IMG/VR virus record: IMGVR_UViG_3300005288_000017
Span: 1 to 52,770 of that record
Length of the DNA: 52,770 bases
Strand: one strand, 5' to 3'
Source of the DNA: a virus
Shown: piece by piece, positions 19,386 to 33,611 of the stretch
Numbering within the stretch: the stretch's first letter is position 1
Layout of the letters: each line of letters begins with the position of its first letter
The notes under the pieces: model-generated
Told to the model about the DNA's origin: nothing
Seen by the model: only the letters and a program-made list of their open reading frames with translations
The model's database searches: none
Made by a program: the position numbers and the translations under genes

Positions 19386-19414
19386 ACTATAATGCCTTCT
19401 GAACAGGCCGTCAA
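19386..19414 (-). promoter_or_regulatory. strong sigma70-type promoter
   Basis: Minus strand TTGACG (19414-19409), 17-bp spacer, TATAGT (19391-19386), placed right after the stop of the gene at 19418 and before the ATG at 19349. Confidence 0.7.
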
Positions 19415-19417
19415 CCA

Positions 19418-19585: not shown

Positions 19586-19620
19586 GGCTTGGTGCCCCTG
19601 TGTTCGTCTCTGATGTCTTT

Positions 19621-19649
19621 ATTCTAGACAAGAAAAAGCCCTGCGTCAA
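19621..19649 (-). promoter_or_regulatory. promoter whose -35 is a terminator loop
   Basis: Minus strand TTGACG (19649-19644), 17-bp spacer, TAGAAT (19626-19621). The -35 hexamer is exactly the loop of the terminator hairpin 19637-19656 and the T-tract lies in the spacer. The same layout occurs at 26242-26276. Confidence 0.72.
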
Positions 19650-19656
19650 CAGGGCT
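19631..19656 (-). terminator. terminator fused to a promoter
   Basis: Minus strand AGCCCTG, six-base loop TTGACG, CAGGGCT, then TTTTCTT. It lies 17 bases after the stop of the gene at 19674. Confidence 0.78.
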
Positions 19657-19673
19657 GAGGTAAATCTTTTAAT

Positions 19674-19916
19674 CTATTTCTCCAACTCTTTCAGTTTAGC
19701 TTTCAATTCTCTATTCTCTTCATCAAGCATCTCACAGATTTCTGCGTACAGGTCACGATCTTCTGTCACTTCAGCTAGCCGTACCTCTAAAGAATCATTC
19801 CATTTTACTAAGGCTGTAGCTGTGTAGTTCTCATCAAGGCTGACCCACTCAGGCAAGTCTTTCATGAACAACTCTCTGCCATCTCTAGAAATCAGGAAGC
19901 CAATGACCTTATTCAT
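19674..19916 (-). CDS. hypothetical protein with C-terminal coiled coil
   Basis: 80-residue acidic unknown protein (MNKVIGFLISRDGRE). Residues 45-80 are heptad-rich (MLDEENRELKAKLKE). AGGAGT precedes the ATG. It is followed by the composite terminator/promoter. Confidence 0.72.
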   Translation of the reverse strand: MNKVIGFLISRDGRELFMKDLPEWVSLDENYTATALVKWNDSLEVRLAEVTEDRDLYAEICEMLDEENRELKAKLKELEK

Positions 19917-19917
19917 G

Positions 19918-20118
19918 TTAGTTACTCCTAGCGATAGAGCGAAATGCTTCGGCTAAGGTTACCTTGACTCGAACTTTACCGTCAAGCCTAGTAATCCGAT
20001 ACCCCTCGGAACATTTCACTATAATTCCGATGAAGTTGTTACTAGCATCGAAAACACGCCGAGTGTTATTACCTGCCACTGGCGAGAAGTGCCCCTTTAC
20101 TGCTGCTGACTGTGCCAT
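19918..20118 (-). CDS. small basic protein
   Basis: 66 residues from ATG 20118 (MAQSAAVKGHFSPVA), with AAGGTG upstream. Strand-rich and basic (RITRLDGKVRVKV). No family recognised. Confidence 0.68.
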   Translation of the reverse strand: MAQSAAVKGHFSPVAGNNTRRVFDASNNFIGIIVKCSEGYRITRLDGKVRVKVTLAEAFRSIARSN

Positions 20119-20209
20119 GATATTCACCTTCTAAGGTTAGGTTTTAAGATGCACCTTGCGGCTAAGTCTTTACCTCCCTTGGTACATCAAATCTCCTTGC
20201 TTGATTAGA

Positions 20210-20238
20210 AGGATAGCGAATGTCTTACAAGCTGTCAA
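20210..20238 (-). promoter_or_regulatory. strong sigma70-type promoter
   Basis: Minus strand TTGACA (20238-20233), 17-bp spacer, TATCCT (20215-20210). The roughly 85-bp leader to the ATG at 20118 contains only a 5-codon frame (ATG 20189) after AAGGAG, possibly a leader peptide. Confidence 0.65.
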
Positions 20239-20257
20239 CCGATTGTGTCAAAATAAT

Positions 20258-20524
20258 TCAAAGTATTTCAAGAGCCTGACCTTCAGCGTAGATAAGCCCT
20301 TCTGCGCAAAGGAATTCTTCGATTTTAGCGAGCTGCTGATAGTACTCAAGCTCACCACCTGTAAGCTCAGGATCATCGGAATCTCGCCACAACCATGACT
20401 GAAAGTGGTAAATCAGAGTTGTTACAGACAGGTTCAACAGATTACGACAATCTACCAAAGCTTGATTGTACACATTAGGATTGTGCAGCGATTCCAAAGC
20501 ATTCATAATTTCTTGGTTGTTCAT
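20258..20524 (-). CDS. hypothetical protein
   Basis: 88 residues from ATG 20524 (MNNQEIMNALESLHN), with TAGGAGC upstream. A longer in-frame reading is rejected because the promoter at 20579-20606 lies within it. Mostly helical, acidic. No family recognised. Confidence 0.7.
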   Translation of the reverse strand: MNNQEIMNALESLHNPNVYNQALVDCRNLLNLSVTTLIYHFQSWLWRDSDDPELTGGELEYYQQLAKIEEFLCAEGLIYAEGQALEIL

Positions 20525-20578
20525 TTTAATGCTCCTACGTTGGTTTTGTGTTTCAACCTTGTACCAGTTGATAAGCTG

Positions 20579-20606
20579 ATGATACAACCTTTGGATCCGA
20601 TAGCAA
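20579..20606 (-). promoter_or_regulatory. sigma70-type promoter
   Basis: Minus strand TTGCTA (20606-20601), 16-bp spacer, TATCAT (20584-20579), between genes at 20643 and 20524. Confidence 0.5.
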
Positions 20607-20642
20607 GAGGTGTTTCACGAAATTATCACATTTATTTTCAGC

Positions 20643-20822
20643 CTACTCCCTAATACTTTCTACGTCTGATCTGTGTAAAAATCTACAGTTTCCATCATCT
20701 TCCACGACTTTCAGGGTAAGGTTGACATTACCCGACCAAACCTCTTCCACCTCGAAGATTTCCCCAATCCTATCTGAGTACCAATAGCTCTGACGCTGCG
20801 CACTGACTACATTAAATCTCAT
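20643..20822 (-). CDS. small hypothetical protein
   Basis: 59-residue unknown protein (MRFNVVSAQRQSYWY), mostly strand (VNLTLKVVEDDG). The ATG follows the upstream TGA by one base, so coupling is likely. Confidence 0.62.
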   Translation of the reverse strand: MRFNVVSAQRQSYWYSDRIGEIFEVEEVWSGNVNLTLKVVEDDGNCRFLHRSDVESIRE

Positions 20823-20823
20823 T

Positions 20824-21009
20824 TCAACCCCCTACTTTAAAATGCTTGACAATTTCTAAAGCTTGGTGTTCCGAAAACCCTTGTCCTTTCAAATCATTGA
20901 AGTAGGACCAGTTAATCTGAGCTTGAATAGCCATAAACTCAAGGAATTGCTTCAGCTGGGTAGTGGTCATCAAGGGTTTGTCTGTGTTTCCGATGTCAAC
21001 TACTTTCAT
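20824..21009 (-). CDS. small hypothetical protein
   Basis: 61-residue unknown protein (MKVVDIGNTDKPLMT), helical C-terminus. AAAGGAG precedes the ATG. Confidence 0.66.
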   Translation of the reverse strand: MKVVDIGNTDKPLMTTTQLKQFLEFMAIQAQINWSYFNDLKGQGFSEHQALEIVKHFKVGG

Positions 21010-21021
21010 CTCTCTTCTCCT

Positions 21022-21300
21022 TTAAAACATCCCAGTGATTTTGTGCCACTGTTCTTCTACGAATGCAACACCTTCTTGGTACTGCTTATCTTCTTCAGAA
21101 AGCTTATCAGTGCCTAGCTGTTCATTACTCCAATTAAACACCAATACATTCAGCGCTGCTTCTCCTAGACTGCAAGCGTATAGACCATCACTGATAGCCT
21201 CTCTAAAGTCAGGACTGAACGCTACGTCATTCAAAATACTTTGTAGTTGTCCTTCTAGTATTTCCAGAGGTTTTATTGTCTCATAAAGATGTTGTGTCAT
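21022..21300 (-). CDS. hypothetical protein
   Basis: 92-residue acidic, helical unknown protein (MTQHLYETIKPLEIL). AAGGATAATACAA precedes the ATG. It overlaps the upstream membrane-protein gene by 20 bases. Confidence 0.7.
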   Translation of the reverse strand: MTQHLYETIKPLEILEGQLQSILNDVAFSPDFREAISDGLYACSLGEAALNVLVFNWSNEQLGTDKLSEEDKQYQEGVAFVEEQWHKITGMF

Positions 21301-21487
21301 TTGTATTATCCTTAGTAAGTACGTTCTGACTGGTATTGAGGAGCAAGTATCCGCTAATGATTGTGATTGTCAATGTCTGGAATGCCTCAACTGGCAAGTG
21401 CCCAAACCAAAGTGAGATGAACAATAACATTTGAATAACACAGGTCAAGATAAATTTACGGGACAGGAATTTATCAGTCATCTCCAT
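21281..21487 (-). CDS. small membrane protein, holin-like
   Basis: 66-68 residues (ATG 21487 or 21481). After a short N-terminus with LSRKF come two hydrophobic segments (about 13-30 and 36-52, with TLTITIISGYLLLN) and a polar tail. The R-K-F start and the two-helix plan resemble phage holins. The gene lies 29 kb from the lysis cassette, which has its own holin at 50252-50479, so it may instead act on the membrane early in infection. Confidence 0.62.
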   Translation of the reverse strand: MEMTDKFLSRKFILTCVIQMLLFISLWFGHLPVEAFQTLTITIISGYLLLNTSQNVLTKDNTNDTTSL

Positions 21488-21656
21488 CTACCTCTAATGC
21501 GTAACCTTTATCTTTAAAGTACTGGGCAACTGCCTGAATAACTTGATGAATCTCGTAGTCCTCCATTGCATCTTTAAGTGGGTTACCGATTTCAATGTAG
21601 TTATCAGCCACCAGCACTGCGTTAATCAATCCCATGTGCAGATTAAGCTCAACCAT
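21474..21656 (-). CDS. small acidic protein
   Basis: 60-residue acidic unknown protein from ATG 21656 (MVELNLHMGLINAVL), with GAGGAG upstream and the start overlapping the preceding stop. Ends VDGDD. Confidence 0.66.
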   Translation of the reverse strand: MVELNLHMGLINAVLVADNYIEIGNPLKDAMEDYEIHQVIQAVAQYFKDKGYALEVDGDD

Positions 21657-21823
21657 CACACAATCTCCTCATCACTCCAAGTCACAACCACTTTAAAAGT
21701 GCCTTTACGGAAACCATATTCGTCGTACGGAATTCCCAGATTTTCGTCAAAGACGGCATCGTCAATATCTTCACTCGCAGATATCAAACTTTCATCACTA
21801 TATGTCTGCTCAAAGATTTTCAT
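21656..21823 (-). CDS. small acidic protein
   Basis: 55-residue, strongly acidic unknown protein (MKIFEQTYSDESLIS). The start overlaps the preceding TGA region. No family recognised. Confidence 0.62.
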   Translation of the reverse strand: MKIFEQTYSDESLISASEDIDDAVFDENLGIPYDEYGFRKGTFKVVVTWSDEEIV

Positions 21824-22002
21824 TCTTGTCCGTCCTCATAATAAAACTTCACTTTAAGTTTCTTATCCAGATCATGAAACTCTTCCCAAGCCGAATCTTT
21901 GTACTTATCATACCAGAAATTGGACACGTAGTCTTGTAGAGCTTCACCGAACTCATCGAAAGCTTCTTCATACCAATCCACTAACAGTTCACGATTGCTC
22001 AT
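21820..22002 (-). CDS. small acidic protein
   Basis: 60 residues from ATG 22002 (MSNRELLVDWYEEAF), with GGAGGAA upstream. Aromatic and acidic, helical. The stop overlaps the next ATG. Confidence 0.68.
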   Translation of the reverse strand: MSNRELLVDWYEEAFDEFGEALQDYVSNFWYDKYKDSAWEEFHDLDKKLKVKFYYEDGQE

Positions 22003-22003
22003 C

Positions 22004-22231
22004 TCAATATTCCTCCACATTAATAAACCTATAGGCTTCTGCCATGAATTCATCATTCGACAGTAAGTCTTTAACAAACTTAGCACAAGCTTTATCGTAG
22101 CTAAATCGCGCCTGTTTCAAATCCTCCCGATTCAGGATGTATTCAAGGCTATTATCTAGCGCTGATTTCGACTTTGCATAGGCACTTTCGCAGACCTCTA
22201 GCCGTTCTAGCAACTCAGACAAGTGCTTCAT
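22004..22231 (-). CDS. small helical protein
   Basis: 75-residue, all-helical charged unknown protein (MKHLSELLERLEVCE). GGGGGG is upstream and the start overlaps the preceding stop. The TAA-to-ATG gap to the next gene is one base. Confidence 0.68.
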   Translation of the reverse strand: MKHLSELLERLEVCESAYAKSKSALDNSLEYILNREDLKQARFSYDKACAKFVKDLLSNDEFMAEAYRFINVEEY

Positions 22232-22419
22232 AGGGTCCCCCCTAGTTTATCCTCTAACTGGTCAATTTTATCCAATAAAGCGTGGATAAGTTTATCACCA
22301 ACTAAGCTATCTGTTTTGGCTGTCCAAGGTTCTCCCTGACGATATGCCCACAGAATGTATGTCTCAGGACAACGTTCAAGACGATACTTACCGTCTGCAA
22401 CTTCATAAACCTTTTTCAT
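22228..22419 (-). CDS. small hypothetical protein
   Basis: 63-residue unknown protein (MKKVYEVADGKYRLE), strand then helix. GGGAG lies upstream and the start overlaps the previous stop. Confidence 0.68.
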   Translation of the reverse strand: MKKVYEVADGKYRLERCPETYILWAYRQGEPWTAKTDSLVGDKLIHALLDKIDQLEDKLGGTL

Positions 22420-22565
22420 TTACTCATCTCCCAACGCTCTAAATGAATCCTATCACTAATGCAGACATGGAATTTATCACAAGCTTTACCTGCACCATCT
22501 CGCCTGTCGTCTGCTTGAATGTGACCTTTGAAATTATTGTTGATATAAACTGCGTAAGTAATCAT
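22416..22565 (-). CDS. small hypothetical protein
   Basis: 49-residue basic unknown protein (MITYAVYINNNFKGH). Both ends overlap neighbours by ATGA, and the upstream gene ends in a GAGAAGAA ribosome-site-like stretch. Confidence 0.6.
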   Translation of the reverse strand: MITYAVYINNNFKGHIQADDRRDGAGKACDKFHVCISDRIHLERWEMSK

Positions 22566-22786
22566 TTCTTCTCATCCTTTGCGATGGCTAAATCAATCAA
22601 CCGAACAAGCTCTGTGCTCGCAGTTTCTACCTCCGCCTGCGCATCAAACACTTGAAGCCACTCATCGGACAAGTCTTCGAATCGAACACCACTGTGAATG
22701 ATGAATTGAGTCCAGCGGTTTGCATTCTGTACGATTTGATCAGTGACTTTCTTAGATACAACAGCAGTTTTCTTTGCAGTAGCCAT
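22562..22786 (-). CDS. hypothetical protein
   Basis: 74 residues from ATG 22786 (MATAKKTAVVSKKVT), with AAGGGGAAG upstream. A Lys-rich N-terminus is followed by an acidic helical body. No family recognised. Confidence 0.7.
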   Translation of the reverse strand: MATAKKTAVVSKKVTDQIVQNANRWTQFIIHSGVRFEDLSDEWLQVFDAQAEVETASTELVRLIDLAIAKDEKK

Positions 22787-22797
22787 TACTCTTCCCC

Positions 22798-23181
22798 TTA
22801 CCAATCAATATCAATTGTGTATGTACCAGCTTCAATCAGCTCCATTCGGTACAGACTGTTTGCAACCATTTGAACATCTGGATAGAAGTTACGGCCCCAG
22901 AACAAATCAAGGAAACGTTTATCTTCTTGATCACCATTCCACTCTTTCGGGTCACGTTCAAGCCACGCTTTAAAGCTTACACCCATTTCCTCGCCATTGA
23001 TTACTTCGGGGACAGAGTCGTTTTCGTAATCATCCGCATCATTAGGAATTGTAAGCTTAACACGTTGACGGTCTTTACAACCATCTTGTTGTTGGAAGCT
23101 GTAGGGACGACCATAAGTGGTTTCTACCAAATTATCCCAATCACCTACGTCAATGACTTGTTCTGTTCTTGCAATCTTCAT
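22798..23181 (-). CDS. hypothetical acidic protein
   Basis: 127-residue acidic unknown protein (MKIARTEQVIDVGDW). AGGAGAATGTT precedes the ATG. First gene after the promoter at 23235-23263. No domain recognised. Confidence 0.74.
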   Translation of the reverse strand: MKIARTEQVIDVGDWDNLVETTYGRPYSFQQQDGCKDRQRVKLTIPNDADDYENDSVPEVINGEEMGVSFKAWLERDPKEWNGDQEDKRFLDLFWGRNFYPDVQMVANSLYRMELIEAGTYTIDIDW

Positions 23182-23234
23182 AACATTCTCCTAAATAATT
23201 TGTTTTACACACATCTGTTCTGTGCATGGCTGTA

Positions 23235-23263
23235 AGATTAGCTGATTAGATTGGATGCGTCAA
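23235..23263 (-). promoter_or_regulatory. sigma70-type promoter overlapping a stop codon
   Basis: Minus strand TTGACG (23263-23258), 17-bp spacer, TAATCT (23240-23235). The TGA inside the -35 is the stop codon of the upstream gene (23260). Confidence 0.58.
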
Positions 23264-23460
23264 GGGTTTATCACTGCAACCCTGCGAAATTCTCTCCGAA
23301 AAATGATTGCGTTAGGCTCCACTTTCATCCACGCAAAGCAAGGTGTAATCTTGAACACTTTTCCTGTGTACAAATAAGAACCGTTATCAGCACCAAAGAC
23401 TACGTTATCACCTTCCCTGATTTGTGTGTTGTTTACGTCTAGTGGTAAAGTGGGTAACAT
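23260..23460 (-). CDS. small hypothetical protein
   Basis: 66-residue basic, strand-rich unknown protein (MLPTLPLDVNNTQIR). The pattern (REGDNVVF... GKVFKI... AWMKVEPN) looks like a small SH3-like barrel. CAGGGAGAA precedes the ATG. Confidence 0.66.
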   Translation of the reverse strand: MLPTLPLDVNNTQIREGDNVVFGADNGSYLYTGKVFKITPCFAWMKVEPNAIIFRREFRRVAVINP

Positions 23461-23550
23461 CTAATTTCTCCCTGTGCGTTTATCATTGCTTGAGAACATG
23501 ATAAACAAAATCATTGTCGGATATAGTAGAAAGCAGAACAATAGAAACAT
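23461..23550 (-). CDS. very small membrane protein
   Basis: 29 residues (MFLLFCFLLYPTMIL) with one transmembrane helix and a polar C-terminus (SSNDKRTGRN). GGAGAG precedes the ATG. The start follows the previous TAA by one base. Confidence 0.55.
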   Translation of the reverse strand: MFLLFCFLLYPTMILFIMFSSNDKRTGRN

Positions 23551-23551
23551 C

Positions 23552-23716
23552 TTATTTCTCTCCATTATCAATAAAGAAACGACATTTGCTAGTATCAGGA
23601 ACGCTTACTATCTGCACAAGCCAAGGTTGATACTTAGCGAGTGGTGGTACAGTGAATCGTAAGCAGCTATCACGTTTTAGGCAGTCTGTGCCGACACATT
23701 TACTGTACACGCTCAC
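23552..23716 (-). CDS. small Cys-rich protein
   Basis: 54 residues from GTG 23716, overlapping the preceding TGA, after GGAGGAAGA. Cys residues at 7, 12, 18 and 45 (KCVGTDC, DSCLR, KCRFF) follow a four-Cys layout seen in small phage proteins, probably binding zinc. Function unknown. Confidence 0.62.
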   Translation of the reverse strand: MSVYSKCVGTDCLKRDSCLRFTVPPLAKYQPWLVQIVSVPDTSKCRFFIDNGEK

Positions 23717-23895
23717 TCTTCCTCCCATTGCCTATCTTCATAATCGCTAAATTCACACAACAGATTCCAGTAAGCATCAAAGCTTACATATTGTCCAAAC
23801 TCTGTTGTAATTTTCTGTACAGATGCTTGACCAAAGTCGTGGTATTCTACTTTGAAGTCGTAACGCCTTGGATTCATGTGTTCATTGCTGCTCAT
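23713..23895 (-). CDS. small acidic protein
   Basis: 60-residue unknown protein (MSSNEHMNPRRYDFK), acidic C-terminus. The start overlaps the preceding stop (ATGA). Confidence 0.65.
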   Translation of the reverse strand: MSSNEHMNPRRYDFKVEYHDFGQASVQKITTEFGQYVSFDAYWNLLCEFSDYEDRQWEEE

Positions 23896-24107
23896 TTCAG
23901 TTCCTCAATTACAAAATCATTCTGGCTATCAAACAGTCCTTTACCATCAGCGAAATAATCTCGATATGTTGTGTGCATGTGTAATGCGAAAGCATTCTTA
24001 GCAGCACCAACCGTAGCCCAACCACACTTTGACCCAAATTTGATAAGCTTGCCTGTAGAAACTTGTCGAATCACATAAACAGATGTTACTTCAAATGCAC
24101 GACTCAT
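23892..24107 (-). CDS. hypothetical protein
   Basis: 71 residues from ATG 24107 (MSRAFEVTSVYVIRQ), overlapping the preceding TGA, with GAGGTG upstream. Alternating strand/helix pattern. No family recognised. Confidence 0.68.
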   Translation of the reverse strand: MSRAFEVTSVYVIRQVSTGKLIKFGSKCGWATVGAAKNAFALHMHTTYRDYFADGKGLFDSQNDFVIEELK

Positions 24108-24298
24108 TTCCACACCTCACAAAATTCAACTTCATCAACCCAATACTCAATATCGGAGATCTTATAATTCGCTTGCAGATATTCACGTGCTTGATTAGCT
24201 GTGTCCATTGTAGAATAGATACCAAGATTACTTCGTGCATAGCGTGTCCCTGTCCACTCATCACAGACAATTATGAATAAGCTCTTTGGAGCTTCCAT
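24104..24298 (-). CDS. small hypothetical protein
   Basis: 64-residue unknown protein (MEAPKSLFIIVCDEW). Its plan (a strand, then MDTANQAREYLQAN helix, then strand) is like the preceding small proteins, suggesting a shared small fold. AAGGAG precedes the ATG. Confidence 0.68.
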   Translation of the reverse strand: MEAPKSLFIIVCDEWTGTRYARSNLGIYSTMDTANQAREYLQANYKISDIEYWVDEVEFCEVWK

Positions 24299-24309
24299 CT
24301 GATTTCTCC

Positions 24310-24471
24310 TTAGTAAAAACTATCACGATAGCTATCAACTTCCTGCTGCACATATTCTTGATATTCAGCATCAAGATCACGCATTTGCTGATAATATTCT
24401 TTGTCAGAAATCAAACCGTCAGTGTGATCCTGTTGGATTTGTTCTGATGCTTTATCATGCCAATTACTCAT
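24310..24471 (-). CDS. small helical protein
   Basis: 53-residue, Gln/Glu/Asp-rich helical unknown protein (MSNWHDKASEQIQQD). The start overlaps the preceding TGA and the stop precedes the next ribosome site (TAAGGAG). Confidence 0.6.
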   Translation of the reverse strand: MSNWHDKASEQIQQDHTDGLISDKEYYQQMRDLDAEYQEYVQQEVDSYRDSFY

Positions 24472-24977
24472 TCTATACCCTCCAATTCATCCATCTTATC
24501 ATTCATCTTATCATTCAACGACAGCAACCGACTCTCAATATACTCTTTCTGAGCCAACAAGTCATTATATTCTTTCACATATTTCTTCAACACTGCCATC
24601 TTACTAACACTACTCCCTTTAGGCTTAGCCCACTTCTTTGTGCACTGATACCCTACAAACACAACACCTTCATAATCATCTTTAGCGTACTCATGCACAA
24701 ATTCATAATCATTCAGGTTGCAGATGAATTCTAGGTCAAACCTTTCAACATCAATATATTTAGAATACTCACGAGCCAAACCTTCGTGTGTGAAGATGTT
24801 TGTATCTTCTTTGCCATCTTTGAAAGGCCAATAGTTGTATGTGTCAATTAGAACTATGTCGCCATGATTGTCTGTGCGAGCTATGCATGTTCTGTCTCTG
24901 CACCAGTATGGATCGTGTGCAGGAATGAGGCTAGGTTTCCAACTGTAGTGGAAATAATCACCATCTTTAATCGTCAT
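24468..24977 (-). CDS. hypothetical protein with C-terminal coiled coil
   Basis: 169 residues from ATG 24977 (MTIKDGDYFHYSWKP), overlapping the preceding TGA. An acidic aromatic-rich domain (1-125) is followed by a Lys-rich linker and a coiled coil (about 135-169, with repeated NDKM). No family recognised. Confidence 0.72.
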   Translation of the reverse strand: MTIKDGDYFHYSWKPSLIPAHDPYWCRDRTCIARTDNHGDIVLIDTYNYWPFKDGKEDTNIFTHEGLAREYSKYIDVERFDLEFICNLNDYEFVHEYAKDDYEGVVFVGYQCTKKWAKPKGSSVSKMAVLKKYVKEYNDLLAQKEYIESRLLSLNDKMNDKMDELEGIE

Positions 24978-25123
24978 TGTGTAACTCCCCAACACCGAAT
25001 GTTATAGAATGCATAAGAATCTTCATTCATTTCTTTAGCAATCTCTGCTAACTCTTTTGTCTTAAACACACCAATGACCACTGTGTCATGTGCATCTATA
25101 CCTGTCAGAATCCAAACGTTCAT
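24974..25123 (-). CDS. small hypothetical protein
   Basis: 49-residue unknown protein (MNVWILTGIDAHDTV), strand then helix (KTKELAEIAKEM). GGGAGTAGAG precedes the ATG and both ends overlap neighbours. Confidence 0.6.
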   Translation of the reverse strand: MNVWILTGIDAHDTVVIGVFKTKELAEIAKEMNEDSYAFYNIRCWGVTQ

Positions 25124-25287
25124 CTCTCTACTCCCACAATCTTAAAGTCAATATTATCAGCCATAGCCTTAAACCTGTCAAGCACCGACATAAATTGATA
25201 ACCTCCAGTTTTACTCCACACAAGGACAATAGCATTTCCTAGATGTTTGCGGAGTGTGTAGGGTTCGAAGTTTTCAATTGAGTACAT
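25120..25287 (-). CDS. small basic protein, start uncertain
   Basis: 55 residues from ATG 25287 (MYSIENFEPYTLRKH), one base after the previous stop. An in-frame ATG at 25314 would add nine residues and overlap the upstream gene. Basic C-terminus. No family recognised. Confidence 0.58.
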   Translation of the reverse strand: MYSIENFEPYTLRKHLGNAIVLVWSKTGGYQFMSVLDRFKAMADNIDFKIVGVER

Positions 25288-25288
25288 A

Positions 25289-25699
25289 TCAATCACACCA
25301 TCCCGGTTGTTCATGTTTCTTACGAGCTTCTGGAATACAATCTGCACAAGCTCTGCCTGCAAAACTGTAACGATATGTCTTGTCTGCTTCTTTCTTGCAC
25401 ACACCGCAAGTAGTCTCAGCCTTCAAGAATGTTTCAGGATTGTAAACTGTTGGCAGCTCAATACACAATCCATCTGGTGCCCAAGCATGTAGACTAACTT
25501 CGTATTTCCACTTACCGACATCTTTACGCGTGATTGCGGATATTACAAAACCGTCTCGTGTCAGGCGGCAAGCTCGCATAGCTGGTTCACTTGGATAAGT
25601 CTGTGATAGTTCCCAGCCATCAGCTCCAGCAGCTTGGATGAAAGCATTAGCTGCTTCAAAGTATTTTACATCATTTGTGTGGCCGAATTGATTGATCAT
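25289..25699 (-). CDS. hypothetical protein with C-terminal zinc ribbon
   Basis: 136 residues (MINQFGHTNDVKYFE), AAAGGAG before the ATG. The body (1-92) is a mixed domain. The C-terminus has CGVC (98-101) and CADC (117-120), two CxxC pairs that should bind zinc. Function unknown. Confidence 0.72.
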   Translation of the reverse strand: MINQFGHTNDVKYFEAANAFIQAAGADGWELSQTYPSEPAMRACRLTRDGFVISAITRKDVGKWKYEVSLHAWAPDGLCIELPTVYNPETFLKAETTCGVCKKEADKTYRYSFAGRACADCIPEARKKHEQPGWCD

Positions 25700-26013
25700 T
25701 TTGTTTCTCCTTTAGCCCATTCGATAGCTGCCACCAGCACATCACCATGGCATGACTTCGGAGCATAATAGCAAGCCAATCGCTTACCGTCAAGCTCAAG
25801 AAGCATTTCTTTGGTAATCACGCCCTTGCGAATCTGATTCCATAGATATTGTTTGTAACGTTCTATAGACTCTTCTCGTGTAGCAACTTGCATTTCTGCT
25901 TTGGTTGGTGTGCTTAAGCTAGTGTAGGGGTTTCCCCATTTTGAGCCTCTACCGATATAGACAATATCAGCATCGGACATACTTACTTTGTATTTGTTGA
26001 CTACTGTTGTCAT
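25696..26013 (-). CDS. DUF4326 protein
   Basis: 105 residues matching DUF4326 by its hallmarks: VYIGRGSKWGNPY (18-30), a middle helical segment with RYKQYLW, and GKRLACYYAP then CHGDVL near 76-92. Proteins with this domain are frequent in phages, but their activity is not established. Start and stop overlap neighbours. Confidence 0.85.
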   Translation of the reverse strand: MTTVVNKYKVSMSDADIVYIGRGSKWGNPYTSLSTPTKAEMQVATREESIERYKQYLWNQIRKGVITKEMLLELDGKRLACYYAPKSCHGDVLVAAIEWAKGETK

Positions 26014-26207
26014 TCTACCAACTCCACTTCATCCCTATGAAAAGGCCACTGAGCTGTATCATCTGGATCAGCCCCATCAAACCTGACTTCTTGGATATAA
26101 ATTCCATATGGACGATCATCAACATAACTGATTGTATATTCTGAGCCTACTTCGAACATTATGTAGGGGCTAGAGATGATGCGTACTTTGTTGCCTGTAA
26201 TGTACAT
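26010..26207 (-). CDS. small hypothetical protein
   Basis: 65 residues from ATG 26207 (MYITGNKVRIISSPY), with TAGGAG upstream. A longer in-frame start is excluded by the promoter at 26242. Strand-rich, acidic end. Confidence 0.7.
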   Translation of the reverse strand: MYITGNKVRIISSPYIMFEVGSEYTISYVDDRPYGIYIQEVRFDGADPDDTAQWPFHRDEVELVE

Positions 26208-26241
26208 GGTGTTTCTCCTATCAATTGGTTTGTGTGAACGA

Positions 26242-26270
26242 ATTTTAGACAAAAGAAAAGGGCCTGTCAA
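26242..26270 (-). promoter_or_regulatory. promoter whose -35 is a terminator loop
   Basis: Minus strand TTGACA (26270-26265), 17-bp spacer, TAAAAT (26247-26242): close to consensus. The -35 is exactly the loop of the hairpin 26259-26276, and it also contains the TGA stop of the nuclease gene (26267). Second example of the layout at 19621-19656. Confidence 0.75.
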
Positions 26271-26276
26271 GGCCCT
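26252..26276 (-). terminator. terminator fused to a promoter
   Basis: Minus strand AGGGCC, loop TTGACA, GGCCCT, then TTTCTTTT. The stem begins inside the 3' end of the nuclease gene. Confidence 0.75.
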
Positions 26277-27241
26277 GTGTGGATATTTCTTTCTGTAAGG
26301 GAATCAAGCAGTTGCACAATACCACCAAAATCTGATAGCGAAGCTGTCTCTGTGTAGCCGTCCGGCATTTCCTCTTTAGGTATTACACCACAAGAGAATG
26401 TATCTTTTACAGTCTGCTCAGCCTTACGACAATCAAAGGTTGTATTGAATTCCCATACTGCGTAGTTTTCAAGCCTAAGTTTGTTCTTTTTATTCAACCC
26501 TTTGAATCTTACACTCCAATTATTTGCAATGCCAAACTTAACACCAACAGGTGTATCCTCAGAGTAGAGGATATGTAGGTAAACTTGCTTTTGTCTGAAG
26601 GTGTTACACTCACAACCTCTATAACCTTGAATCAAATTCTTGTAGTTTGATGTGTAAGTGATAGCACACTCTGGACACTGTACATCCCAATACTCTCTGT
26701 GTCCGTTCTTTGCTTTCTTATCTGATCTAGTAAAGATTGTGTCTTCTGCAAAACCTTTAAAACTTTTAATTGCTTCGTCATCAGGTTTTCTTGTTTTATG
26801 CACCATCTTTTGTGAGTGACATTCGGAACACAGTATGTCATATCGTCTAGAATCGTTTATACAGCTACCGTCCCAAGTTATGTTGTGAGTCGTGCAGTGC
26901 ATTTTAGTTCTAGTTTGTGAACCTATATAATCAGAAGACCAACCTAAGAACTCACAATTAAATAAAGAAGCTCTTCGATTCAATAGGATTTTATATTGCC
27001 ATTCCTCCCACTGGGGAGCTACAGAACAGCCGCAAGGTCTTACTTTATCTCTTAGTGTTTTCGTGCCTACATCAAATAATCCCAGTTTAAATAGTTCTGG
27101 ATCTTGTTTGCATACTTCACACTCTACTACCAGTCTAAGCTTATTATTTTCATTCCTGTAAGAGCCAATGATGTTGTAGTAATCAGATTTATATTTATCT
27201 ACATCTGTATTTAGATCTTTAGTACTTTCGTATATCTTCAT
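26267..27241 (-). CDS. GIY-YIG-like nuclease with zinc-finger repeats, probable homing endonuclease
   Basis: 324 residues. Cys modules occur at CEVC (41-44) with CGC (70-72), at CSEC (138-141), and at CPEC (189-192) with CEC (210-212). They resemble the Cys modules of the two AP2-type homing nucleases here. The C-terminal domain (about 219-285) looks GIY-YIG-like: VYLHILY at 220-226, KFGIANN at 235-241, Arg245, Glu275 in RKAEQTV. The mobile-type gene is flanked by a 490-bp gene-free stretch upstream. The nuclease assignment is by motif only. Confidence 0.68.
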   Translation of the reverse strand: MKIYESTKDLNTDVDKYKSDYYNIIGSYRNENNKLRLVVECEVCKQDPELFKLGLFDVGTKTLRDKVRPCGCSVAPQWEEWQYKILLNRRASLFNCEFLGWSSDYIGSQTRTKMHCTTHNITWDGSCINDSRRYDILCSECHSQKMVHKTRKPDDEAIKSFKGFAEDTIFTRSDKKAKNGHREYWDVQCPECAITYTSNYKNLIQGYRGCECNTFRQKQVYLHILYSEDTPVGVKFGIANNWSVRFKGLNKKNKLRLENYAVWEFNTTFDCRKAEQTVKDTFSCGVIPKEEMPDGYTETASLSDFGGIVQLLDSLTERNIHTGP

Positions 27242-27733
27242 TCTATCTCTTTCTTATCTATTATATTAATATCTTATATACCTATTCTGTTAGATTAGAG
27301 TTTAGGAAAGATAGATTAATCCCAAGAAATGCCATACAGAAGTATCCTCCTGCCTAGACATAACTTTGATCTATCTTACCCTATAACAGCTCATTCTGTT
27401 GAGTTGTCGCTTAGGCTGACATTAGGTCAGAGCTATCAAGAATCTGATAACAAGATTGTTCATCATTCCACCCAAAGGCGTAATCGATCCGCTATAATGA
27501 ACTTCGATTCAGCTTGGCCGAGGATCTTCCCTCTTCATAACCTTTAATACAGAGCCGGTGAGTGCGCCTAAATAGGCCGTTGACATTTCTCTCTCTGTAC
27601 GATGACCTTCTAATTTGCTCTCGCTTAGAAGAAGTCCATGTGTAAATATTACGCTATTAATCTCTCAATTGCAAGCTTTCTGACATGATATGTTTTTATA
27701 GCAAACAGAGAAAGCGATAACTACAAGGAATAC
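27242..27733. other. gene-free region upstream of the GIY-YIG-like gene
   Basis: About 490 bp. A 72-codon plus-strand frame (27329-27547) exists but has no ribosome site and an unlikely composition. No tRNA fold, terminator or clear promoter was recognised. It may carry the nuclease gene's promoter or be residue of its insertion. Confidence 0.5.
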
Positions 27734-27868
27734 CTAATCACCCTCCAACACCCTCAACATCTCTTCAAGATCCTCTCTACTCAGCCACAGAGGACGTTCC
27801 TCTTGTTGGTGATAGATGATAATTGCATTACCTACCTTGTCCCAATCTGTACCGTTGTCTGTGTTCAT
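27734..27868 (-). CDS. small acidic protein
   Basis: 44-residue unknown protein (MNTDNGTDWDKVGNA), acidic helical end (REDLEEMLRVLEG). GGAAGG precedes the ATG, two bases after the EF-Ts-like gene's stop, so they are co-transcribed. Confidence 0.58.
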   Translation of the reverse strand: MNTDNGTDWDKVGNAIIIYHQQEERPLWLSREDLEEMLRVLEGD

Positions 27869-27870
27869 GT

Positions 27871-28098
27871 TCAAGCCTTCCTAACCAAATAATCCAACAA
27901 TTTATAGATATCAGTGATAGCTTCTCCCATATCCATATTTCGTGAATTCACATTGTAACGAAGATCATCAAGTCTGCCCAACATCTCGGCTTTATATTCC
28001 TCGGCATACCTCTGCTCAAGAATCTTCTTGCAAGCCATCATTCCTTCACCAGTTTCTTGCTGCAAAGCTCGTACTTCTTCAATAGTTGGGCCTTTCAT
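27871..28098 (-). CDS. EF-Ts N-terminal-domain-like protein
   Basis: 75 residues. Residues 5-27 (TIEEVRALQQETGEGMM then ACKKIL) match the N-terminal UBA-like domain of elongation factor Ts, whose signature is V-K-x-L-R-x-x-TGAGMMDCKKAL. In EF-Ts this domain contacts the G domain of EF-Tu. The core domain with the TDVGF motif that drives nucleotide exchange is absent: after residue 30 there is only a charged helical tail. It may bind host EF-Tu without acting as an exchange factor. It is the fourth gene after the strong promoter at 28658, so probably early. The ATG overlaps the preceding TGA. Confidence 0.8.
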   Translation of the reverse strand: MKGPTIEEVRALQQETGEGMMACKKILEQRYAEEYKAEMLGRLDDLRYNVNSRNMDMGEAITDIYKLLDYLVRKA

Positions 28099-28295
28099 TT
28101 CACATCTCCAATAACATCATAAGTAGTCTCTGCACCATAAGGACGAACAGTCCACTTAGCAATCAGCTTCTTCTCATACTGATATTCATGTCCGTTGTCA
28201 ACATAAATCCATTCATCATCCTCGGTGACATCAATCACAGGATCTACCCAATCTCGTGAGCCATCTTTAAGCTCTACAACGAATTCATTGTGCAT
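28095..28295 (-). CDS. small acidic protein
   Basis: 66-residue unknown protein (MHNEFVVELKDGSRD), strand-rich. The ATG overlaps the preceding TAA (TAATG) with GGGGAGGGG upstream. The stop overlaps the EF-Ts-like gene's ATG. Confidence 0.68.
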   Translation of the reverse strand: MHNEFVVELKDGSRDWVDPVIDVTEDDEWIYVDNGHEYQYEKKLIAKWTVRPYGAETTYDVIGDVK

Positions 28296-28366
28296 TAGCT
28301 CTGCCCCTCCCCAAGCTTAAGTTTCTCTCCAGAAGATGCGTCAATGATTTTAAATTTCTTTTTCAT
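28295..28366 (-). CDS. very small basic protein
   Basis: 23 residues (MKKKFKIIDASSGEK). The start overlaps the preceding TGA and the stop overlaps the next ATG. Accepted only on this tight coupling and protein-like sequence. Confidence 0.5.
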   Translation of the reverse strand: MKKKFKIIDASSGEKLKLGEGQS

Positions 28367-28629
28367 TTCTTCAAAGCCTCAAGAATCTTTTTAAATTCAT
28401 CAGAACCCAATTCCTCTACATAGCCATCTACAGCGACAACATAGTGGTTTGTAGAAGGGCAATACTGCAAGCAAGCTTCCTCAGCCCCCTCATGAGACGA
28501 AAACCCGGCAGCCTTAGCCAATGCCTGCACGTCAGCTTCCGTATTAGGGATATACTCCCAACCTTCCCATGCTGGTGTCTGGTTAGGGTAGTAGTTGTAG
28601 GTCATCACGGATTCAATTAGATTTTGCAT
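28363..28629 (-). CDS. hypothetical protein, first gene of the minus operon
   Basis: 88 residues from ATG 28629 (MQNLIESVMTYNYYP), with GAGGAG upstream. Two Cys residues (CLQYC), acidic helical C-terminus. It is the first gene after the promoter at 28658-28685, hence probably early. No family recognised. Confidence 0.7.
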   Translation of the reverse strand: MQNLIESVMTYNYYPNQTPAWEGWEYIPNTEADVQALAKAAGFSSHEGAEEACLQYCPSTNHYVVAVDGYVEELGSDEFKKILEALKK

Positions 28630-28657
28630 GGCGTTTCTCCTCAATTAATGTAGGCCA

Positions 28658-28685
28658 ATCATAACAGATCAAGGGGTGAAGTCAA
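28658..28685 (-). promoter_or_regulatory. strong sigma70-type promoter, leftward
   Basis: Minus strand TTGACT (28685-28680), 16-bp spacer, TATGAT (28663-28658). It drives the operon that includes the EF-Ts-like gene. Confidence 0.7.
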
Positions 28686-28694
28686 GAGGGGATA

Positions 28695-28708
28695 GCGAAT
28701 AAATTCGC
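28695..28708. promoter_or_regulatory. inverted repeat between divergent promoters
   Basis: GCGAAT-AA-ATTCGC (28695-28708). GAATAAATT recurs at 28714-28722. Lying between the leftward and rightward promoters, it is a candidate operator for a regulator controlling both. Confidence 0.5.
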
Positions 28709-28766
28709 ATAGATGAGGAATAAATTTACTGGGATGGAGTGTAGGAGAATTTTGTTGGGAAGGTGC

Positions 28767-28794
28767 TTGACATAGCAAATTGAACGTGTAGAAT
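28767..28794 (+). promoter_or_regulatory. strong sigma70-type promoter, rightward
   Basis: TTGACA (28767-28772), 16-bp spacer, TAGAAT (28789-28794), 37 bp before the ATG at 28832. It should drive the replication block. Confidence 0.72.
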
Positions 28795-28831
28795 GTGACG
28801 TATTGAAAGCAAACCTAATGAGGAAACGGAC

Positions 28832-29122
28832 ATGCAAAACAAATGTGTTGTAAAGGTGCAAACAGAGGCGTATAAACGTGGTGACACGTATTTCTATGGG
28901 AAATCCATACGTGTCCTTCAGAAACTTACAACGTACGATCTACTGAAGGATGAATGTGATAATATTGGAATCTGTGATGGGCTGGAAAACATTATCAATT
29001 TACAGCAAGTGGAGGATGGTAAATACTATGTTGAAGCTGTTAACATTTCCAAAGATTGTGAGACAGGTTATATTGACGACTGGGACTTTAAGTTAGTGTC
29101 ATTTGATGGGGAAGTAAAATGA
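28832..29122 (+). CDS. hypothetical protein
   Basis: 96-residue unknown protein (MQNKCVVKVQTEAYK), first gene of the rightward block. GAGGAAAC precedes the ATG and the stop overlaps the next ATG. Confidence 0.74.
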   Translation: MQNKCVVKVQTEAYKRGDTYFYGKSIRVLQKLTTYDLLKDECDNIGICDGLENIINLQQVEDGKYYVEAVNISKDCETGYIDDWDFKLVSFDGEVK

Positions 29123-29328
29123 GCACATTTGGCGACGGAACATTTAGACAAGACGTCTACGAGCAGATTCAATATTACGTAGACTCACACAGCTTGAAAC
29201 CTTCTGAAGCTATCTCAGAGCTGATGGAGATTGTGCAATGGATGCTGATTATTAGCGACATTGAAGGTGAAGCATACGAACGTGGTAAGGAAGACGCTAA
29301 AGCTGAGACTCTTGCAAAGCTTAATTAA
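29119..29328 (+). CDS. small acidic helical protein
   Basis: 69-residue unknown protein (MSTFGDGTFRQDVYE), mostly helical, ending KAETLAKLN. GGGGAAG precedes the ATG, which overlaps the previous TGA. Confidence 0.7.
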   Translation: MSTFGDGTFRQDVYEQIQYYVDSHSLKPSEAISELMEIVQWMLIISDIEGEAYERGKEDAKAETLAKLN

Positions 29329-29354
29329 GCCATCAACCAAAAGGAGTAATAGAC

Positions 29355-29795
29355 ATGCGAAACAATATGCAAACATATCAAGACATCTTCGGCACTGAAA
29401 ACTGGAATGCTCATTTCTCAGGTGGGTTTAATTCTCGTGTGTTTGGTGATACACAAAGTCAAATGTTCCAAGGTCCGTATCGGTTTGAACGGCAACAAGG
29501 TTGGCGGCTGGCAGATGAGATGATCCGCGAAGGTAGAATTTACTTTACTCATCCGTTCCCGCATGGTAATTGTAAGTCGAAAGCTTTCACGTACGGTGGT
29601 ACATGGGCTTGTAATGATTGTAACAGAGATCATCTTGACAAACCTTGGTGGAATGTTAAAGTGTTCAAGGATGGAGAGGCATTCTGTGTAATCGGACAAG
29701 GCTTTGAGAATCTGCAAGAGTCTGACAATTACGCGTTCGGGACTACTAAAGAAGAAGCTCTTGAGAATTATTATCAACTCATGAAAGATGTCTAA
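29355..29795 (+). CDS. hypothetical protein with possible zinc site
   Basis: 146-residue unknown protein (MRNNMQTYQDIFGTE). HGNC (70-73) and CNDC (86-89) could together bind a zinc ion. The C-terminus is a strand-helix unit (GTTKEEALENYYQLM). AAAGGAG lies upstream. About 85 bp without a gene follow. Confidence 0.74.
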   Translation: MRNNMQTYQDIFGTENWNAHFSGGFNSRVFGDTQSQMFQGPYRFERQQGWRLADEMIREGRIYFTHPFPHGNCKSKAFTYGGTWACNDCNRDHLDKPWWNVKVFKDGEAFCVIGQGFENLQESDNYAFGTTKEEALENYYQLMKDV

Positions 29796-29881
29796 GCTCT
29801 CAATGTCATCGACATTTCGAAGAAACAATATACGTATAGGGTGTATGCAAGATTAATTTAAATATAGGGGTGGAGAGAAAG

Positions 29882-30133
29882 ATGAACGATTGCTATAAAG
29901 AATGGTATGAAGAGGCTATCATTGCTTCGAATGAGCTAGGTTTTGCTGGTATGTCGGCAGCAGATGTAATCAAGTATCTGGCGCATGAAGTTGAGGAGCT
30001 GAAGACATCAAACAATGTAAATGCTGAGGATTGCAATGAAGCTGAACAGATTTTACGAAACATTATTAAAGAGTGGAGTTGTTCGGGCGATGTCTTTGGT
30101 GCAATTCAACAAGCAAAGGAGTTTTTGAAATGA
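29882..30133 (+). CDS. hypothetical protein
   Basis: 83 residues from ATG 29882 (MNDCYKEWYEEAIIA), with GGAGAG upstream. Acidic and helical. The stop overlaps the next ATG at 30130. Confidence 0.7.
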   Translation: MNDCYKEWYEEAIIASNELGFAGMSAADVIKYLAHEVEELKTSNNVNAEDCNEAEQILRNIIKEWSCSGDVFGAIQQAKEFLK

Positions 30134-30711
30134 CTAACAAAATCGCAGCATACAAAGACCTACTGAAAGTGGTCAAGAAGCACTCTGAAGCGTTTGACCG
30201 TGAGAATGTCACATTGTCTCCAGAGCACCTTAAATCTGTTGTGCAAGCCATGGAAGTGAGTGACCGCTTCGGCATCCCGTTGCAAGGTATTCAATCTGGC
30301 ACACACCTTCGGGTAAAAAATGTCTATGACGATTGGACAGGGATCAGCCTGTTTGGCGAGAAACATGGTCGTACAATCGGCTGTCCAGATAATGGTAAGC
30401 AGCCTAAAGATGAATGGTTGTTCAAGATTAGCTTTCCTTGTGGTGCCTACACATTTGGTGGGGATGGTTTGTGGGATAGGAGCTATCCTAAGAAAACATT
30501 TGATGCATTCTTTGAAGAATTGAAGTCATATGGTACTGCATTCTCTGATACAATGAATAATGCTTTGTACTTTCGTGAAGACAATTCTAAAGCTGTGTAT
30601 GAGGCTTTCTGGAGTTTGTTCAATAAATATAAAACAATGGTTGCTGATGAGTTGAAAGAGCAACGTAAACAAGAGTTGGTTAAAGAGCTTGAAGCATTGG
30701 AGAGTAAATAA
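30130..30711 (+). CDS. hypothetical protein
   Basis: 193 residues from ATG 30130 (MTNKIAAYKDLLKVV), with AAAGGAG upstream. A central domain with GEKHGRTIGCPDNG and FPCGAYTFGG is followed by a long charged helix (ADELKEQRKQELVKE). No family recognised. The next ATG overlaps its TAA. Confidence 0.74.
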   Translation: MTNKIAAYKDLLKVVKKHSEAFDRENVTLSPEHLKSVVQAMEVSDRFGIPLQGIQSGTHLRVKNVYDDWTGISLFGEKHGRTIGCPDNGKQPKDEWLFKISFPCGAYTFGGDGLWDRSYPKKTFDAFFEELKSYGTAFSDTMNNALYFREDNSKAVYEAFWSLFNKYKTMVADELKEQRKQELVKELEALESK

Positions 30712-31682
30712 TGAAATACGTAAAGACAGTAGACGAAGCATTCGAATTCGTAAAAGGCTTGATGACAGCTTTGGAAAAGAAAGCAGAAAGTAACATTCCT
30801 TCTGTGATGAAGCTAAATAAAATCACAATGCCTTCTGTGGCTAATACATATGCAGCGAATGCTTTCAAATACGGAAGCAGCTATTATGAGCGGGATCCTA
30901 AGACTATTGAGGAAGTTGACACTAAACTTTCCCAGCTCCTTGAGAAAGCTGAAGTAGAACGTCTTAAAGTGGTAGCTGAACACGAAGTCAACCTTCCAGC
31001 GATTGAGAACAACCAGAAGGTACGTGAAAAGATCAGTCAGATTATGAAAGACATTGGTATTCCTAATAACTATTCTACATCTGAATTCAAGACTCAACGC
31101 TCACGCACAAAGACTACGACAACTCATTCTGCTGGATACCTTGGGGACTTGCAGCGCAATGTCCCTGTGAGCGACGAAAGTGAGCGTATGTTAACGCTAA
31201 TTAAGAGTGCTGTAGACTCGTTGAAGCGTCATGCAGACACACTCAAGGGTACGATCCGCAAAGAGCTACAAGAGGCAGAAAAGACCGAGAAAGCTAAGAA
31301 AGAAATCCTTGCTAAAGCGAGATTACAGGTTAAGTATAATCTTGATGAAGACTTTGAATGGTCTGATGTGTTGGAAGTGTTGGACAAGAAAGATAAATAC
31401 TTTATGCTTGCTCGTGCCGGTGAGGAGACGCGTGGATATTGGGGCGAAGGCTTCGGTAAAGTAGAATATGCACTAGATAAATTTGAAGTGCAGACTGAAG
31501 AAGACAAAGAAATTCACGAAGAGTATGATAGTATTCTCCAAGACCATAATAACGGTGATTGTGAAGATGGTCGAATCTTTAGAGACTGTGAATATAATTA
31601 CTCATTCTTGTACGGCAAAGTAAGTGAAGAAATCATGAAAGATTATGAAACTCTCAAGGAGTATTACAATGGCGACTATTGA
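30711..31682 (+). CDS. large hypothetical protein, helical
   Basis: 323 residues (MKYVKTVDEAFEFVK). A helical N-terminal half, a low-complexity Thr/Ser/Lys stretch (SRTKTTTTHSAG, near 130), a coiled coil (about 178-205) and an acidic C-terminus. No recognisable domain. Its position just upstream of the helicase suggests a replication-associated role, inferred only. Confidence 0.75.
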   Translation: MKYVKTVDEAFEFVKGLMTALEKKAESNIPSVMKLNKITMPSVANTYAANAFKYGSSYYERDPKTIEEVDTKLSQLLEKAEVERLKVVAEHEVNLPAIENNQKVREKISQIMKDIGIPNNYSTSEFKTQRSRTKTTTTHSAGYLGDLQRNVPVSDESERMLTLIKSAVDSLKRHADTLKGTIRKELQEAEKTEKAKKEILAKARLQVKYNLDEDFEWSDVLEVLDKKDKYFMLARAGEETRGYWGEGFGKVEYALDKFEVQTEEDKEIHEEYDSILQDHNNGDCEDGRIFRDCEYNYSFLYGKVSEEIMKDYETLKEYYNGDY

Positions 31683-31944
31683 TATCAAGAAAGGCTACAG
31701 ACACATCAGTCCCGAGGAACTTCGCTCATATGCTTATAGTGGGCATCTATGTTGCGGAAGTCTGGACATCTCCGATTTTCTAGAGCACATTTTTCAAGGC
31801 ATGATCTCTCAAGATGAGCTAGACAAAGCAATTGAAGAAGCTGAAAAGAATTGCGAATGTGATTGTAATAGTGATGGAGATGGGGTATATTTAAAGGATC
31901 AGGTGAAAAGGGCTATTAAGATTCTTGAAGATGGGTTGGAATAA
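31669..31944 (+). CDS. hypothetical protein
   Basis: 91 residues from ATG 31669 (MATIDIKKGYRHISP), with AAGGAG upstream, overlapping the previous gene by 14 bases. Cys residues cluster at CC (28-29) and CECDC (61-65). Helical, acidic. Confidence 0.7.
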   Translation: MATIDIKKGYRHISPEELRSYAYSGHLCCGSLDISDFLEHIFQGMISQDELDKAIEEAEKNCECDCNSDGDGVYLKDQVKRAIKILEDGLE

Positions 31945-31964
31945 TTGGGTTGAGGGAGAATGGT

Positions 31965-33611
31965 GTGAGTTATTTCAAAAAGCTAAAGGAGCGAGAAGTG
32001 GAAGTTTTTAATAAAGAAACAGTTGATGACGTTAAGAAGTATGCGTCTGTAGATGCACCTGAGCGTGGTATTCGTAAAGCTACGCTTGAGCGGTTTGGAG
32101 TGAAGGTTGCACTGTCTGAGAAAGATGGTAAGACACCAGAAGCTTTCTACTTTCCTTCATACAACCAGAAAGGGAAAGTTGTAGGCTATACAAAACAAGA
32201 TGTAACCAAAGGCAAGGACGAGAAAGGCCATTGGACTGCAATCGGCAGTGTTTCAATTAACAACAAACTCTTTGGGCAAGATGTCGCAGAGAATATTAAT
32301 CGTAAACGAACTAACCTTATCTGTACAGAAGGCCAATGGGACCACCTGAGTGTTTATCAGTCTCTTTGTGATAATGTAAAGGGTACAAAATACGAAGGTA
32401 TCGAACCGCTTGTAGTGTCTATCCCTCTTGGTACAGCTAATGCTGTGGAGGCTTTGCTTCACAATGAGTCTTACGTTTCATCTCACGATTCTTTGACTAT
32501 TTTCTTTGATGACGATTACTGCACACCAGCAGAAACCAAGAAAGGGGTTATGAAGGGCCATGAAGCCCGTGAAGCTGTTGCTAACGCTTTTGTTGGAACT
32601 GGCTTGTCGTTGATGACAGTATCGCCAGCAGATGGCTTGAAGGATGCTTCGGATTATCTACAGGCTGGTCGTAGTGAAGAGTTGGCAAAGCTTGTTCAGT
32701 TCGGTAAACGTGCATACTCCGCTGAAAAGATTGTCAAAGCTTCTGATATCAGTATTGAAGAGTTGCTTGAACCACGGCCAGAGGGTGTGTACGTTAACGA
32801 GTTTCCTAAGCTAATGGATAAGTTGCATGGTTTTCGTATGCGAGAGCTTGTCCTATTGACAAGTCCCAGCGGCGTTGGCAAATCCACTGTGACATCCATT
32901 TTTGCTAGTTCTTTTATGGAATCTGGTGAAAAACTTGGAATGATCTATTTGGAAGAATCAAACAAAGAGACAATGCAACGTTTGATTGCAGCTAAATTGA
33001 AAGTAAGTTATCTGAAGTTTAAAGACAAACCCCTTGAATGTGCAACATTGGAACAGATTACACAAGCCCGAAATGAAATTGTAGACAACGATTTGCTTGT
33101 TATGTTGGGGCACTTTGGCAGTCTGCCAGTTAGTGAACTAATGAACAAAGTAAAACATATGCACTTGGTTGAAGGGTGTAAATACATTCTTATTGACCAC
33201 TTGAGTATGGTTGTATCTGGAAGTCATGTAACAGATGAACGAAAAGAGCTTGATATTGTAATGACAGAACTAGCGGCTTTCTGTGCTGCAAATGATGTTT
33301 GCGTTATTGCAGTGTCTCACATTAACCGAAGTGCAGCAGAGCAATTCAAAGCACCAAAAGGCAATGAAGACAAACCGTTTTGGGTTAAGGTAACAAAGGA
33401 GATGATGCGGGGTAGTGCGGCTCTGGAACAATTGAGTTTTGTTATCATTGGTTTGGAACCACAGATTATGCCAGACCGCTCACGCGGTAATGTTCGACTA
33501 ACTGTTCTGAAGAATCGACCTTGGAGTTACTTGGGAGTTGCGGATGAATTTACTATTGATGAAAACACTTGGGCAGTGCTGCTTGCTCAGGAAGTTCCAG
33601 ATGACTTTTAA
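31965..33611 (+). CDS. primase/helicase, T7 gp4-like, without zinc finger
   Basis: About 548 residues. TOPRIM signatures (Glu122 in CTEGQWD, DDD at 182-184) are followed by a RecA/DnaB-type helicase domain with Walker A SPSGVGKST (300-308) and Walker B ILIDH. T7 gp4 unwinds DNA at the fork and primes lagging-strand synthesis. Here the N-terminal Cys4 zinc domain that reads priming sites in full-length gp4 is missing, as in the shorter gp4B helicase form. GTG 31965 after GGGAG and GTG 31998 after AAGGAG are both good starts. Followed by a homing endonuclease and the DNA polymerase. Confidence 0.9.
   Translation: MSYFKKLKEREVEVFNKETVDDVKKYASVDAPERGIRKATLERFGVKVALSEKDGKTPEAFYFPSYNQKGKVVGYTKQDVTKGKDEKGHWTAIGSVSINNKLFGQDVAENINRKRTNLICTEGQWDHLSVYQSLCDNVKGTKYEGIEPLVVSIPLGTANAVEALLHNESYVSSHDSLTIFFDDDYCTPAETKKGVMKGHEAREAVANAFVGTGLSLMTVSPADGLKDASDYLQAGRSEELAKLVQFGKRAYSAEKIVKASDISIEELLEPRPEGVYVNEFPKLMDKLHGFRMRELVLLTSPSGVGKSTVTSIFASSFMESGEKLGMIYLEESNKETMQRLIAAKLKVSYLKFKDKPLECATLEQITQARNEIVDNDLLVMLGHFGSLPVSELMNKVKHMHLVEGCKYILIDHLSMVVSGSHVTDERKELDIVMTELAAFCAANDVCVIAVSHINRSAAEQFKAPKGNEDKPFWVKVTKEMMRGSAALEQLSFVIIGLEPQIMPDRSRGNVRLTVLKNRPWSYLGVADEFTIDENTWAVLLAQEVPDDF

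Follow-up and report, generated by a model that had tools for sequence, protein, structure and literature searches.

Composite elements that unite a promoter with a terminator are already known from T4-like phages as promoter-early stem-loop (PeSL) cassettes. They were reportedly described by Arbiol et al. in 2010 (doi 10.1093/gbe/evq006) for the phages RB49 and Phi1, and in 2014 Comeau et al. (doi 10.1093/gbe/evu129) are said to have presented the PeSL of KVP40 and nt-1 as 'composite conserved promoter-terminator motifs'. Papers that cite this work tie the cassettes to gene shuffling in T4-like phages (PMC4503421, PMC3950731). In the current study we analysed a stretch of viral DNA of 52,770 nucleotides (IMG/VR record IMGVR_UViG_3300005288_000017; hereafter the window), a 52.8-kb fragment of a phage genome. 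As in the RB49/Phi1 type, the window has a strong predicted sigma70-type promoter linked to a terminator stem-loop, set between small early genes at junctions where relatives differ in their genes.

The layout, however, is not that of RB49. All 12 cases found in a scan of the RB49 genome were tandem, with the centre of the terminator loop ~30 nt (29–46) upstream of the −35 hexamer, and none was superimposed; in the window the −35 lies in the loop itself, at an offset of 0 from the loop centre. PeSL also belong to T4-like phages, whereas the relatives of the window's phage, judged by DNA polymerase, are mostly phages of 85–97 kb that are not T4-like. For these two reasons we did not file the window element as a PeSL. 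Hairpin and promoter do share bases in KVP40 (AY283928), where our genome scan found five superimposed elements at 59699, 85859, 100194, 121377 and 150227 (plus strand). These have the form AAAGGGTTGAC(n4)GTCARCCCTTT followed by TATNNT, for example AAAGGGTTGAC(tacg)GTCAACCCTTTcttgTATTAT, and their T-tract falls within the spacer. With the −35 in the 5′ arm, these elements have a largely fixed stem sequence, whereas the in-loop −35 of the window leaves the stem free to vary. Acinetobacter phage B9 (L118) has superimposed elements at 67903 and 74616 (plus strand). As in the window, a T-tailed hairpin and a promoter are superimposed there, the hairpin at 67884–67913 being annotated as a terminator; the −35 is in the 3′ arm, a third placement besides the loop and the 5′ arm. 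The in-loop form may thus be regarded as a variant of a PeSL-like kind of element that probably works as PeSL do.

Shared bases at the window elements

On the minus strand, positions 26276–26242 read AGGGCC-TTGACA-GGCCCT-TTTCTTTTGTC-TAAAAT (element 1). An initial annotation had proposed this order over roughly 35 bp, and direct reading found every base in place. The 5′ arm AGGGCC (26271–26276) and the 3′ arm GGCCCT (26259–26264) enclose TTGACA (26265–26270), which had been called a perfect −35 and indeed agrees with the hexamer at 6/6 positions; its outer T and A can pair, which reduces the loop to a UGAC tetraloop. The T-tract had been equated with the promoter spacer; it lies within TTTCTTTTGTC (26248–26258), which supplies the remainder of the 17-bp spacer, and the first part of that spacer is the 3′ arm. 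All that the initial annotation had observed proved correct. The −10 hexamer TAAAAT (5/6) occupies 26242–26247.

As RNA, the first 18 bases fold into a hairpin of −11.6 kcal/mol, with the T-tract directly after it. The stem of 6–7 bp has five G-C pairs, seven of the eight bases that follow are T and the whole stands after an open reading frame, as is expected of an intrinsic terminator. Since the stem is short, termination here may be partial. As a sigma70 promoter the element agrees at 11 of 12 hexamer positions at the ideal spacing of 17 bp, its score is among the best in the 18–38-kb stretch of the window, and transcription is predicted from the position of the −10 to start at ~26235. This exact 18-mer is found nowhere else in the window. 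An Rfam search returned no match, and a tRNA search found none.

Upstream lies the gene (26267–27241, minus strand) for a 324-aa CapR-domain protein that matches the phage endonuclease family phrog_681 and has weak GIY-YIG-like matches below cut-off. The downstream gene (26010–26207, minus strand; 65 aa) starts with an ATG preceded by AGGAG, a good ribosome site, 63 nt past the first base of the −35. Nearly all elements examined have this context, with the end of an open reading frame just before or inside the element and a start codon 47–68 nt past the −35. The TGA within TTGACA (26267–26269) is, as had been claimed, the stop codon of the endonuclease gene. The same overlap recurs in KVP40 (annotated CDS KVP40.0231), where the element at 121377 has the stop TGA of a CDS inside its −35, and possibly in P-RSM4 (an unannotated open reading frame).

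During translation of the endonuclease gene, a ribosome at this stop codon could cover the hairpin. The element might on this basis be a translation-coupled switch, which would put the endonuclease and downstream genes on one transcript when the endonuclease is translated and separate them otherwise. Although the stop in the loop of element 1 and its counterpart in KVP40 would suit such a switch, the overlap is missing from the second copy in the window and from most relatives, whose stop codons sit 12–35 nt before the −35, and we consider the switch unlikely. For the same reason we do not count the overlap as part of the design; it is better regarded as an additional saving that occurs now and then than as a conserved part of the element. 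Of the three functions that the initial annotation placed on the same bases, the terminator and the promoter are therefore well supported by sequence (recurrence with different stems, arms that covary around a fixed TTGAC, a correctly spaced −10 and the order stop codon, element, ribosome site and start codon); the stop codon is literally there in this copy but is not conserved.

The initial annotation spoke of a first copy, and the second that this implied was found on the minus strand at 19656–19621, reading AGCCCTG-TTGACG-CAGGGCT-TTTTCTTGTC-TAGAAT. Its arms AGCCCTG (19650–19656) and CAGGGCT (19637–19643) form a stem unlike that of element 1, TTGACG (19644–19649) serves as loop and −35, the T-tract TTTTCTTGTC (19627–19636) completes a 17-bp spacer and TAGAAT (19621–19626) is a 5/6 match to the −10. 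The upstream gene (19674–19916, minus strand; 80 aa) ends 27 nt before the −35 with no overlap, and a gene of 55 aa follows (19418–19585, minus strand). Both copies combine a sigma70 promoter with a terminator stem-loop between genes. A third minus-strand terminator of the window, at 14899–14916, reads AGCCCC-AATTAT-GGGGCT and has a T-tract resembling that of the composite copies; its loop is without a −35, and AAAAAT stands where a −10 would be. It may be a decayed or precursor form of the composite.

In order to determine how often such composites arise by chance, we used a scanner that combines a hairpin, a TTGACA-like loop, a T-tract and a −10 in free register; patterns in which the length of the stem or T-tract was preset had given zero matches in relatives and in one viral scan, so that the free register was needed. 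The window contained two composites, compared with a mean of 0.017 per shuffle (60 dinucleotide shuffles, one composite in total, maximum one). For 20 other phage records the expected number of composites was 0.0–0.2 each. Across 21 phage records, nine T-tailed hairpins carry TTGAC in the loop, and eight of the nine are followed by TAnnnT at 16–18 bp, compared with 13% of all TTGAC sites. Because of this coupling to a correctly spaced −10, the TTGAC loops appear to be promoter parts rather than chance loops. These figures weigh on the simpler view that the hairpin is a plain terminator devoid of promoter activity, its TTGACA loop and TAAAAT being coincidental. Such terminators exist, as the same stem and T-tract occur with a GAAA loop in KpNIH2 and P1201 and the third terminator of the window has an AATTAT loop; however, the excess over chance, the −10 coupling and the presence of a ribosome site and start codon at a promoter-like distance downstream make this view quite unlikely. 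The BLAST matches to the element in KpNIH2, P1201 and V5 were rejected as plain terminators with the same T-tract and not composites. Two single scanner hits, KVP40 87649 and Felix O1 48067, were also set aside for their weak T-tracts and poor hexamers.

Recurrence and stem covariation in other phages

The initial annotation had suggested that related genomes be scanned for a hairpin with a TTGACA loop. The composite scan found the in-loop layout once each in the related phage G001 and in PAK_P3, and twice each in the relatives G002 and G006 and in the cyanophage P-RSM4, each with its own stem; the relatives G003, G004, G005 and G007 had no in-loop element. Of PeSL, several copies are expected in the variable regions of one genome; the counts here are two in the 52.8-kb fragment and two each in G002 and G006. 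In PAK_P3 the stem is 12 bp long, and the element carries the annotation 'putative terminator' (72359–72384); terminators are not mentioned in the text of the PAK_P3 RNA-seq paper. A megablast search of window positions 20000–32000 against phages gave zero matches. The DNA of the element region also had no match in G001, the nearest relative by polymerase, because the early region of G001 is different.

Eight independent stems were aligned on the −35 in one register. Paired cells made up 97.9% of the alignment, each of the six pairs was altered on both sides somewhere and TTGAC was invariant. The covariation score of the stems was 1.08, compared with 0.23 for shuffled alignments, and 0 of 500 shuffles reached 1.08. 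At the position in G006 equivalent to the second copy, the sequence is AGCCCC-TTGACC-GGGGCT; in an ungapped alignment with the second copy, anchored on the −35, both bases differ in four of the seven pairs, and pairing is kept in every one. At the level of sequence, covarying arms around a fixed TTGAC are the hallmark of a stem that pairs as RNA and a loop constrained as DNA.

This pattern bears on whether the inverted repeat is instead a protein operator, which would make the element a sigma70 promoter whose −35 lies in the binding site of a phage or host regulator, with no termination. The perfect inverted repeat found here has the −35 at its centre, which is a classic place for an operator. 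The arms, however, differ between the two copies of the window and among relatives, so that pairing is conserved and not a shared site, and the covariation around the fixed TTGAC argues against a fixed protein operator. The T-tract is moreover on one side only, and the elements come directly after stop codons. We believe that an operator is very unlikely, and that the arms are those of a terminator hairpin.

We also examined how widely the layout is spread. A degenerate-pattern scan of IMG/VR returned 46 stretches, most of which read AAGRGGGT(tgac)ACCCTCTT followed by a T-tract and TATAAT. Of 36 distinct stretches, 31 form stems that reach 6 bp or more and contain one G-U pair at most; the marine examples among them have a common sequence and are not all independent of each other. 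BLAST matches to this form came from marine cyanophages, P-SSM2, P-SSM7 and P-RSM4 among them. From bacterial and archaeal genomes 49 stretches were obtained. In a stricter scan, stems of at least 5 bp were found in 7 of 9 distinct viral stretches, some of them related, compared with 7 of 45 distinct cellular ones (Fisher p = 0.0005) and 8% at random. The in-loop layout is on this evidence mainly a phage trait, and cellular look-alikes appear to be rare. Two contigs filed as cellular, L277 (Parcubacteria) and L279 (Clostridiales Family XIII), carry near-perfect in-loop composites with 8-bp stems, a TTGACA loop and TATAAT. Two viral contigs (L230, position 32; L232, position 6001) have AGCCCC(gccacTTGAC)GGGGCT followed by TTTTCTTTTGTC and TAGTAT, with a loop of 10 nt.

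Gene content on either side of the elements

The early region of the window is collinear with that of G006 at roughly 70–93% DNA identity. The collinear part covers window positions 13400–28700 on the minus strand (L192–L196 in G006), though the DNA polymerases of the two are only 38% identical as proteins. G001 has a polymerase 92% identical to that of the window, yet a different early region. The contrast between polymerase and early region points to strong mosaicism. An HNH endonuclease gene was also observed at 33624–34469 (plus strand), flanked by the genes for primase/helicase and DNA polymerase, as is typical of homing endonucleases.

Element 1 is present in G006 as 36 bp (GGGCCTTGACAGGCCCTTTTCTTTTGTCTAAAATTC) identical to the window, and its flanks have been replaced. 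Upstream in G006 is a different CapR endonuclease, of 405 aa compared with 324 aa and with 26% amino acid identity over 197 residues. Downstream is a gene whose orthologue in the window sits ~0.9 kb further on, past three other genes. Around the second element, the window and G006 have upstream genes of similar appearance and different downstream genes. The elements are therefore placed at points of change in gene content. PeSL are taken to serve as recombination points for gene shuffling; at element 1 the shared core has different genes on both sides, and we infer that genes may have been exchanged there, in which the element itself may have had a direct role.

Proposed mechanism and implications

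We consider it highly probable, from the sequence, that the element is an intrinsic terminator and a sigma70 promoter superimposed on each other, which punctuates a minus-strand gene cluster, presumably transcribed early, and marks a module boundary. As RNA, the GC-rich stem and U-tract would halt polymerase arriving from the endonuclease gene. As DNA, the element would present the −35 in its loop and TAAAAT as the −10, separated by a 17-bp spacer that consists of the 3′ arm and T-tract, so that host sigma70 polymerase would bind the same DNA and initiate ~7 bp past the −10. The two signals can share bases because a terminator needs pairing and U's and accepts any loop, while a promoter needs its hexamers and accepts any spacer. 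The flanking genes would be insulated by the element, so that whole modules of genes could be swapped at this point.

A broader proposal, which we put forward only tentatively and think more doubtful than probable, is that the in-loop layout is a distinct, undescribed superimposed class that arose convergently in unrelated phages (90-kb myophages, Nankokuvirus and cyanomyophages). Its free stem would let copies diverge and so avoid recombination with one another while still marking module boundaries.

The arrangement suggests a simple packing rule, in which the part of each signal that tolerates any sequence houses the constrained part of the other and a terminator and a promoter fit into ~35 bp. 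Genomes are easily scanned for this rule, which tools with separate promoter and terminator calls would overlook. The element may also be of use in synthetic biology as a compact insulated promoter part. For the phages themselves, in-loop elements would mark likely module boundaries in early regions.
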